A stretch of DNA of 64,000 bases from an uncultured Vicinamibacterales bacterium (GTDB taxonomy: Bacteria > Acidobacteriota > Vicinamibacteria > Vicinamibacterales > UBA8438): NCBI GenBank assembly GCA_958295905.1, contig OY282382.1:1698001-1762000 (forward strand), written 5' to 3'. Below the pieces are notes generated by a model that did no database searches, was not told where the DNA came from, and saw only the letters and a program-made list of their open reading frames with translations. This document shows, piece by piece, positions 7,515 to 12,277 of this stretch; positions within the stretch are counted from its first letter, which is position 1; every line of letters starts with the position of its first letter. The position numbers and the translations under genes are program-made.

Positions 7515-7982
7515 TCACGAGTTCCCGAGCGCCCCGGTCAGCGGATCCCCGCAGATCAGTTGCCGAACTATCTCCGGGTGCTTGCGGAATCGGACACTCG
7601 CGCGCCTCAGCTCGAACTGCTTGTTGCGTCGCATGTTCCTGGACACCAGGACGGGCCGGAAGCGCACGGCGGGATGTCGGGGAGGCAACTTGTCGTCGGC
7701 GGCGTCGGCGCCCGCCTGAAGCTGTTTGGTGACTTTGGCGATGTTCGGGGCGCCGTGCTCCTTGATCTCGATCGGCATGACCAGGTCGGGTTCTCCGAAG
7801 AACAGGAAGTCGCATTTGGTTTGAGCGGGCCCCAATGGGGACCCGGTTTCGTCGAGGTCGATGATGACGCGTGGATGCGGGGCGTCTGCCAGCGACACGC
7901 CGCATCCGCCCTTGTTGATGCCGTCGACCACACAGGAGAGAGCATCGATTCCGGCACGAACCGCGTCGGCGAAACCGTTCAT
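7515..7982 (-). CDS. Small putative PD-(D/E)XK nuclease paired with AAA ATPase
   Basis: 155 residues, start overlapping the stop of the upstream ATPase (ATGA at 7979-7982), so the two are translationally coupled. The middle shows D58 (KCDFLFFGEPD), then E72-I-K74 (MPIEIKEHG) and a following helix with KVTKQLQ (Gln88). This spacing is that of a PD-(D/E)XK nuclease core with the trailing helix of RecB-like enzymes. The basic C-terminal part (RNMRRNKQFELRRASVRFRK) could bind nucleic acid. I do not recognise a named family. The pairing suggests an effector controlled by the ATPase, as in two-gene anti-phage modules. The nuclease assignment is inference from motif spacing only. Confidence 0.6.
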   Translation of the reverse strand: MNGFADAVRAGIDALSCVVDGINKGGCGVSLADAPHPRVIIDLDETGSPLGPAQTKCDFLFFGEPDLVMPIEIKEHGAPNIAKVTKQLQAGADAADDKLPPRHPAVRFRPVLVSRNMRRNKQFELRRASVRFRKHPEIVRQLICGDPLTGALGNS

Positions 7983-9460
7983 TCGGTGTCTCCACGCGGT
8001 TCTGCGATCTCCGCCCAGACGTTGTGCAGGGCCGCCGCGACGGCGGCGAACCCAGACGGATAGAGGCCGGTATCGGCGTCCAGCTCGATCTCCTTCACTG
8101 TCGAGCCGCCGCCGTTCGCGGCCGGTTCGAACAGCCACACGCCGACGTCACGGGCGGCCAGGGACTCGGCGCTGGATTCCCCGTCGCGGTCGGTGCGCCG
8201 AGACCGTCCGACCACGTTGCCGAGCTCTTCGAGCAGCCACTCGCTGTGGGTGGTCACGATGACCCTCACGCCGGCTCTGACGATCTCTGCGATCTGCCGC
8301 ATGAACTTCACCTGCATGCCGGGATGCAGATGGGATTCCGGCTCGTCGATGATCAACACGTCGTCGGGGGCAACGACATGCCGCAGGTACAACACCACCG
8401 GCGCAAGCTCCGACACCATGGAGGACGTGTTCGTCAGTGGCAGGTTGGTCTCCCATCCACTGGGGCGATAGGTGAACCGCGGATACCCGACGCCGGGCAA
8501 AGTCTCGACCTCGACCGCGCCACGGAGAATCCCGTCTTCGATGCGCTTCCCGAGGCTGCGGAGACCCTCCCTGTCATGCCCGGACCGTGTGGGCCGAGAG
8601 GACGCGATCTCCGCCAGTTGTTCCAGGAAGTCGGCGCGGACCCCGGACAGCGCCGGCACCGGGTTGGTCCGACCCGTGCCGACCCTGGCCGCGCTCTGGA
8701 TGAGGGCCCGGACGATGGCGCTGTGGGCGTTCATCAGACCGGTCCGATCCGCGGGCAGATAGAACGCGCGATGGCGCTTCGGCAGCACGTCCCGAGCCAG
8801 CCCGCCGATGGCTTCCCATACCCGGCTTGTCTGTACGCCTTCCGGTTCGTTTTCCGCCTTCGCGCTGAGCAGATCCAGAAAGTCCGTCCACTTGTCGTCG
8901 CTGGCCCGAATCCGCGGGCGGTCTGGAATGGCCGACAGAAACGTCCATTCCTGATCGCCGAAAGCGAGCTCGTGCGCGGCGGGCGTGGGGACGCCTTCGA
9001 CCGCATGCCGAAGCAGGATGTGCATACCCCCGTCACTGCCGTGGCGCGCCAGATGGCCGCCGGTGTCGACGCCGAAGCAACGCTCGATCTCCGCGCCGAT
9101 TGGCGCGCCCTGTCGCCCGAGATGCAACCTGATGGCGGTCTCGACCGGGGCCGTCAGCGTGACGCCCTCCTCAACCACGTTGGAACCCCGGGATCCTGCC
9201 AGTGTCAAGCGCGCGAGAATCTCGAAGACATCCTTCCTTGCGCCTTCGGGAAGGGTTGGTTCCTCGAACCCTGTCCAGAACCAGGGGCGCGCGCTCCGCG
9301 GACCCGTCTCGAAGTGCCGGTGCAAGGCGTACGCCAGTGTCGCCAACCAGGACTTCCCGGTGTTACCGGGCCCGACGAACACGGTCAACGGCCGCAACTC
9401 CACACAGGCCCGGGCAACCGGTCCGCAATCGGTCACGTCGAGCGTCAACGGGCGATCCAT
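7979..9460 (-). CDS. AAA/SMC-like ATPase (OLD/PtuA-type) of a two-gene module
   Basis: A ~493-residue ATP-binding protein. Walker A GPGNTGKS lies near the N-terminus (about 30-37). Far downstream are Walker B with the conserved DEPESHLHP (LIIDEPESHLHP, about 370) and the H-switch TTHSEWLLEEL. This split arrangement, with a long insertion between the two halves, is typical of AAA_15/AAA_21 ATPases of the OLD, PtuA and RloC type. There is no TOPRIM domain, so the catalytic partner is probably the coupled small downstream protein. A GTG at 9466 is an equally possible start. Its position next to two R-M remnants supports a defence role. That role is inferred. Confidence 0.82.
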   Translation of the reverse strand: MDRPLTLDVTDCGPVARACVELRPLTVFVGPGNTGKSWLATLAYALHRHFETGPRSARPWFWTGFEEPTLPEGARKDVFEILARLTLAGSRGSNVVEEGVTLTAPVETAIRLHLGRQGAPIGAEIERCFGVDTGGHLARHGSDGGMHILLRHAVEGVPTPAAHELAFGDQEWTFLSAIPDRPRIRASDDKWTDFLDLLSAKAENEPEGVQTSRVWEAIGGLARDVLPKRHRAFYLPADRTGLMNAHSAIVRALIQSAARVGTGRTNPVPALSGVRADFLEQLAEIASSRPTRSGHDREGLRSLGKRIEDGILRGAVEVETLPGVGYPRFTYRPSGWETNLPLTNTSSMVSELAPVVLYLRHVVAPDDVLIIDEPESHLHPGMQVKFMRQIAEIVRAGVRVIVTTHSEWLLEELGNVVGRSRRTDRDGESSAESLAARDVGVWLFEPAANGGGSTVKEIELDADTGLYPSGFAAVAAALHNVWAEIAEPRGDTE

Positions 9461-9466
9461 GGTCAC

Positions 9467-11261: not shown

Positions 11262-11807
11262 ATGACTTCGTCGCTCCTTGGCCGTCCCGCGGTTCCGTTC
11301 GAGTTGCGCGACGCCCAGGATCGGGTGCACCGGCTCGACGGGTACCGCGGCCGGTGGCTGCTGCTGGTGATGCATCGGCATCTCTTCTGACTGCCGTGCC
11401 GGCGGCATCTGCTGCAGTTGCGGCAGGCGGAGGGCGAGCTGGAACGGCTCGGCGTGCAGTTGCTGGCTGTCACGTTCGAGGGCGCGGAGGCGGCGCGTGC
11501 GTACGCGGCCGAGACCGGACTGCCCTGGCCGCTGCTCGTCGATACCGATCGGCGCCTCTATCACGCCTACGGCATGGGGAAGGCGCGGCTCCGGCATCTG
11601 TTCGGGCCCGCGACCTTGCGCGCCTACTGGCGGGAGGCCCTTCTCGGGCAGCTTCCCCGCCTGCCGCGCGCGGATACGGCGCAGCAGGGGGGCAACGTGC
11701 TGATCGATGGGGCGGGGCTGGTTCGGTTCCATCACGTCGGCCGCGGACCCGCCGACCGGCCGCCGGTCGCCAAGCTGCTGGCGGCGCGACGCGCCTTTCA
11801 GTCCTGA
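11262..11807 (+). CDS. Peroxiredoxin-like (AhpC-TSA_2) probable selenoprotein, UxxC active site
   Basis: A thioredoxin-fold redox protein of 181 residues if the in-frame TGA at 11388-11390 is read as selenocysteine (residue 43). Upstream codons give an ordinary redoxin N-terminus (MTSSLLGRPAVPFELRDAQD, then WLLLVMHRHLF). Right after the TGA comes LPCRRHLLQL, so the site reads F-U-L-P-C, where relatives carry C-x-x-C. The downstream part is typical AhpC-TSA_2: GLPWPLLVDTDRRLYHAYG and QGGNVLIDGAGLVRFHH. Bases after the TGA can fold: CTGCCG (11391-11396) with CGGCAG (11421-11426), or a smaller hairpin 11392-11407, compatible with a bacterial SECIS element. The gene ends two bases before a universal stress protein. 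The alternative is a nonsense mutation in an otherwise intact gene. selA/B/C/D are not in the window. Confidence 0.75.
11391..11426 (+). promoter_or_regulatory. Candidate bacterial SECIS hairpin after the in-frame TGA
   Basis: Immediately 3' of the TGA codon, CTGCCG at 11391-11396 can pair with CGGCAG at 11421-11426. The apical part falls 20-28 bases after the TGA, where bacterial SECIS loops usually sit. An alternative 5-bp stem with a 6-base loop occupies 11392-11407. Neither shows the exact E. coli GGUC loop, and bacterial SECIS sequences vary. Folding was judged by eye only. Confidence 0.45.
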
Positions 11808-11809
11808 CC

Positions 11810-12277
11810 ATGATTCCGCCGACGACCATTCTCGTTGCGACCGACTTCAGCGACGCCTCCGGGCTGGCCCTGACCTACGCCAAAGCGCTGGCTCGACGGT
11901 TCGAATCGACGCTCCATCTGCTGCACGTCGTCGCCGATGCCGACGTCAGCCCGGGAACCGAGGCGTTGTGGGGGTTCTCCGAGACCGAGGTGCAGCGCCG
12001 CTGGGTCGACGAGGCGACGGCGAAGCTGGTCGGCTTGTGCTCGGCGGAGGAACAGGCGGCGTTCCCGGTGCGCACGGCCGTCGAGATCGGGCCCCCGGCG
12101 GACGGCGTCTTGCGGTACGCCGGCGACCATCAAGTCGATCTGGTCGTCGTGGGGACCCGGGGGCGCGGCGCCGTCGAGCAGTTGCTGTTGGGAAGCGTCG
12201 CGGCAGAGGTCGTGCGGCGCGCGCCCTGTCCCGTCCTGACGGTGCGCGACTCGGCCCCCTCCGCTCGGGAACCGTAG
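11810..12277 (+). CDS. Universal stress protein (UspA family)
   Basis: 155 residues with the Usp fold: ILVATDFSDAS at the start and the ATP-binding signature G-x2-G-x9-GS seen as GTRGRGAVEQLLLGS, then RRAPCPVLTVR. It should bind ATP and act in stress tolerance in the cytoplasm. It starts two bases after the stop of the predicted selenoprotein redoxin, so the two form an operon and probably respond to the same oxidative stress. Confidence 0.9.
   Translation: MIPPTTILVATDFSDASGLALTYAKALARRFESTLHLLHVVADADVSPGTEALWGFSETEVQRRWVDEATAKLVGLCSAEEQAAFPVRTAVEIGPPADGVLRYAGDHQVDLVVVGTRGRGAVEQLLLGSVAAEVVRRAPCPVLTVRDSAPSAREP

Follow-up and report, generated by a model that had tools for sequence, protein, structure and literature searches.

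According to two papers that cite its original description, SelL is found in fish, invertebrates and marine bacteria and carries a UxxU motif (PMC2397514, PMC3316567). The animal PRXL2 (SelU) proteins occur in selenocysteine (Sec) and Cys forms, and the mammalian SelU proteins carry Cys (PMC3473315). A catalogue of prokaryotic selenoproteins published in 2026 contains peroxiredoxin (Prx)-like thiol:disulfide oxidoreductases (PF00578, UxxC/UxxU) and a cd02970 family (UxxS); neither NF040769 nor SelL is found by name among its entries (PMC13188914). In the Sec peroxiredoxins (TxxU), Sec stands second, after Thr.

In the 64,000-nucleotide stretch of DNA that was analysed (the window), we identified a gene for a protein of 181 residues at 11262-11807 (+), running from an ATG at 11262 to a TGA stop at 11805-11807. 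The frame is interrupted by a TGA at 11388-11390 and continues in the same frame for 138 further codons up to the stop, in agreement with the coordinates of the original prediction. Translation with this TGA as Sec gives residue 43 and an active site U43-L-P-C46 in the context RHLFULPC, with Cys46, the putative resolving Cys, encoded by TGC at 11397-11399 as the second redox position of the motif. The reading frame on either side of the TGA had been predicted to encode one redoxin family, and this was borne out by two profiles that span the TGA, AhpC-TSA (residues 7-111, 69.8 bits, over its cut-off) and NF040769 SelL_rel_redox (residues 9-175, 158.2 bits against a curated cut-off of 120). AhpC-TSA_2 (PF13911) matched residues 53-161 with 54.8 bits against a gathering cut-off of 27. 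In comparison to five relatives, and wherever dS was computable, dN/dS was 0.19-0.44 before the TGA and 0.04-0.27 after it, and the codons flanking the TGA are under purifying selection on both sides. Based on these and the following comparisons, the gene was confirmed as that of a true selenoprotein, with the in-frame TGA predicted to encode the active-site Sec. We consider it highly probable that the product is a soluble thioredoxin-fold selenoprotein, SelL-related and PRXL2 (SelU)-like, in which Sec43 would be delivered through SelB and an RNA hairpin and would act in redox chemistry together with Cys46. The selenoprotein is well supported and not unprecedented, since relatives in at least six phyla share both the codon and the hairpin that reads it.

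The match to the SelL-related family NF040769, which has Sec and Cys forms, is full-length and above the curated cut-off, and within this family the window protein belongs to a group, here called HRHL-UxxC, in which Sec is near-universal. With SelL, the window protein shares a Prx-like thioredoxin fold and a Sec at the first motif position, and four relatives carry UxxU. However, the window protein has one Sec (UxxC) and not two, and its SECIS element is bacterial and in frame; because SelL has UxxU and the window protein U43-L-P-C46, it does not qualify as SelL sensu stricto. With the PRXL2/SelU proteins, including human prostamide/prostaglandin F synthase (PGFS), it shares the passed AhpC-TSA_2 cut-off and a U/CxxC at the start of a helix; it differs in being bacterial, in having 21% identity to the human structure 9usa and in the presence of Sec in nearly all relatives. 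The label peroxiredoxin-like, given originally, holds for the AhpC-TSA fold, but the protein falls in the SelL-related/PRXL2 (SelU)-like branch and the typical Prx motif PxxxTxxC is missing, RHLFULPC having no Pro and having Sec at the Thr position. Similarly, the Sec peroxiredoxins have the same fold (AhpE and Bcp, Z ~20), whereas in the window protein Sec replaces the Thr and Cys comes second. The catalogued Prx-like thiol:disulfide oxidoreductases, compared by their description, have the same Pfam domain and the same motif types, and this PF00578 entry may be the same group as HRHL-UxxC or overlap with it.

A structural model was made with AlphaFold2 from 43 family members, with Sec modelled as Cys (pLDDT 93.7, pTM 0.90), and in this model residue 43 directly precedes a helix at 44-55. 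The best Foldseek match was 9usa, human PGFS (PRXL2B), which was solved as a C44S/C47S mutant and thus has CxxC at the place of U43 and C46; the TGA had been predicted to lie at the position of the first active-site Cys, and this agrees with the human protein. The next fold neighbours were the peroxiredoxins Bcp4, AhpE and Bcp1 (Z ~20). When the sequence was aligned with that of AhpE, U43 lay opposite the Thr and C46 opposite the peroxidatic Cys of F-T-G-I-C, indicating that Sec holds the thioredoxin-type first position. This position, together with the presence of ResA among the sequence matches, would also suit a protein thiol-disulfide oxidoreductase of the ResA/TlpA kind, in which Sec is assigned correctly and the enzyme is not a peroxide reductase. 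We regard such an activity as a serious possibility at somewhat less than an even chance, as the strongest fold neighbours are PGFS and peroxiredoxins and no signal peptide was seen in the N-terminal sequence MTSSLLGRPAVPF. PGFS reduces an endoperoxide. The window protein likely acts as a putative thioredoxin-type reductase for peroxides or disulfides, with a selenenylsulfide as intermediate. As suggested by the fold and the motif, the Sec43 selenolate, placed where the active-site helix begins, would attack the peroxide or disulfide; Cys46 would resolve this step by forming a selenenylsulfide with Sec43, which thioredoxin or a comparable reductase would then reduce.

A possible hairpin had been predicted right after the TGA. 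A hairpin is indeed present, but it lies further downstream, at 11409-11426 (+), with a 7 bp stem (11409-11415 with 11420-11426) and an AGUU loop (11416-11419) that starts 25 nt after the UGA. The published criteria for a bacterial SECIS (bSECIS) are a loop of 3-9 nt with a G in the first two loop positions, a stem of 4-16 bp, a distance of 16-37 nt from the UGA to the loop and an energy of -7.5 kcal/mol or lower (PMC13188914). The hairpin agrees with the bSECIS model throughout, having a loop of 4 nt with G second, the above stem and distance, and an energy by itself of -10.4 kcal/mol. When the gene's own 45-nt stretch was folded whole, another structure was the best one and the stability was not significant (z -1.0), and we therefore set single-sequence folding aside for covariation. 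The hairpin became the minimum-energy fold only without the first nucleotides after the UGA, which would be expected to be covered by the ribosome standing at this codon. An Rfam scan of the window at the gathering threshold found no RNA family. The short string GCAGTTGC has 7 occurrences in the window and is thus no signal alone; it is position and covariation that carry the case for a SECIS.

RNAalifold with 30 sequences gave a single helix as consensus, with seven pairs closing the AGUU loop. Paired cells amounted to 92.4% in comparison to 77.8% in shuffled alignments, changes on both sides of a pair were seen in 29 cells in comparison to 10.8, and the covariation score was 0.473 in comparison to 0.214. 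For each of these three measures none of 500 shuffles was as high, and slid versions were far below; the shuffles leave the kinship among the sequences in place, but the same pairings nonetheless recur across phyla. In the larger set of 78 distinct sequences, 99.4% of cells formed the four inner pairs, as compared to 81% after shuffling (shuffled maximum 86%). The codons at +8 and +11 from the TGA were mostly CTG-CAG, ACG-CGT, TCG-CGG or CGA, GCG-CGC, GTG-CGC and TCA-TGG in these sequences, so that with the inner pairs kept, the residue at +8 (L, T, S, A or V) tracks the residue at +11 (Q, R or W). Judging from this anatomy, its conservation and the gene content of the genome, SelB with Sec-tRNA would bind the in-frame hairpin and deliver Sec to the UGA at 11388 during translation.

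The codons of the loop are invariant as well. The Gln codon at +9 was CAG in all 24 close orthologues, and the Leu codon at +10 was TTG in 24/24 close orthologues and in 78/78 of the wider set, whereas TTG made up 77 of the 565 Leu codons across the same genes of the close orthologues. This TTG (11418-11420 (+), Leu53) is also a false start: under translation table 11, 11418-11807, with a TTG start and 129 aa, is the sole remaining downstream open reading frame in this frame, and the expectation that an annotation pipeline would call only this part was correct. The same open reading frame would fit a genuine stop at the TGA followed by a shorter protein of 129 aa that starts at TTG 11418 and is missing the active site. 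We consider this very improbable, as the 42 codons preceding the TGA show protein-level conservation within the same family, the supposed start codon is the invariant codon of the hairpin loop, and the Sec machinery is present.

The source genome (6.3-Mb, 98% complete) was found to encode all four components named in the original prediction. The tRNA-Sec gene (selC) scored 63 bits, above the Rfam cut-off, and ARAGORN reported a tRNA-SeC with anticodon tca; selB (303 bits), selA (542 bits) and selD (290 bits) were over their curated cut-offs. In an 837-aa frame that lacks in-frame TGA codons (L044:1384-3897, minus strand; C1 ~874147-875073), SelD follows an NADH-dehydrogenase-like N-terminal portion; such Ndh-SelD fusions have already been described (PMC2398784). 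A second likely selenoprotein was observed in the same genome, a redoxin with FHRSADWUPYC (L156:478-2001 (+); C1 ~4864477 onward), suggesting that the Sec pathway serves more than the gene at 11262-11807. Across 25 genomes bearing this gene, selB was over the cut-off in 20 and two more had truncated copies at contig ends; it was not found in the other 3, whose assemblies are fragmented or incomplete. The frame would equally be open if the organism had reassigned TGA to another amino acid such as Trp or Gly, but this is hardly credible: the gene's own stop at 11805 is TGA, the relatives stop with TGA, TAG and TAA, where Sec is naturally replaced at the site, it is by Cys rather than Trp or Gly, and a tRNA-Sec with anticodon TCA is present.

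We determined the conservation of the in-frame TGA at two levels. Among 100 related genomes of the family and order, all loci that cover the active site at 55% identity or above carry a single in-frame TGA, always at this codon, which goes far beyond what chance would give. For the wider scan, approximately 85,000 bacterial and archaeal species genomes were searched with the patterns WLLL[VM][MFL]HRH and LY..YGM, from which the active-site codon was excluded. This gave 79 loci, mostly from metagenome-assembled genomes, and codon 43 was readable in 78 of them, being TGA in 77 and TGC in 1. According to their records they come from at least six phyla (Acidobacteriota, Planctomycetota, Thermodesulfobacteriota, Pseudomonadota, Myxococcota, Verrucomicrobiota, Hydrogenedentota). 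It has practically no weight that the TGA, one base from TGC/TGT in the assembled window sequence, is a nonsense mutation or a miscalled Cys codon in a pseudogene or artefact, since the same codon is TGA in 77/78 independent assemblies from at least six phyla and there is purifying selection on either side of it.

With the TGA read as Sec, Cys orthologues had been expected at the same position, and it was found that Sec is usual and Cys rare. Codons besides TGA, TGC and TGT were not seen at the site among the relatives examined. Within the phylum, more remote members of the family include CxxC forms, and six such remote members have TGC or TGT at the site. The second position is Cys in every relative, except for four in which both positions are TGA (UxxU), namely L130 from Planctomycetaceae and L051, L054 and L063 from Acidobacteriota. 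These four have the diselenide motif of the SelL type, and one AGUU hairpin was observed downstream of both TGA codons. L131 (L131:1501-2031), the only orthologue with Cys that was found among the HRHL sequences, has TGC at codon 43 and reads CTCGATCTGAAA at the position of the hairpin, which is gone. It is placed among Sec-bearing rows in the tree and its genome retains selB, which suggests that Sec and hairpin disappeared jointly while selB was kept. A second, frame-broken copy with TGA (L154:1501-1761), likely a pseudogene or an assembly break, was observed in the Acidobacteria genome assembly that also contains L123. Additionally, the order includes a distinct redoxin group (L035-L038 and similar) with a TGA in a GTWUPNC motif, followed by a different hairpin sequence.

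A gene for a universal stress protein (Usp, 123 bits) was observed at 11810-12277 (+), beginning 2 nt past the selenoprotein stop codon. In the flanks of 1500 bases of the pattern-scan loci, Usp was beside the gene in only two and an upstream NHL-repeat gene was mainly seen in close relatives; no functional link was found from these neighbours. Elsewhere in the window, 7979-9466 (-) encodes an ATPase of the AAA_15/AAA_21 type that partially matches ATPases of defence systems (PD-T4-4_A, 99 bits).

What is added to a known kind of selenoprotein is the near-exclusive use of Sec, the breadth of phyla and the occurrence of UxxU in Acidobacteriota and Planctomycetota. We lean slightly towards the view that HRHL-UxxC is a broad, near-purely Sec bacterial family, unlisted as NF040769 or SelL in the 2026 catalogue and with UxxU members in these two phyla, in which the SECIS has steered the protein, the residues at +8 and +11 changing together because their codons must pair. 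Since a gene finder that takes every TGA as a stop loses the active site, members of the family can readily be mistaken for short, inactive fragments. The alignment clearly illustrates how an RNA signal within a coding region forces paired amino-acid changes, and the natural series of UxxC, UxxU and CxxC forms makes the benefit of Sec over Cys directly measurable.
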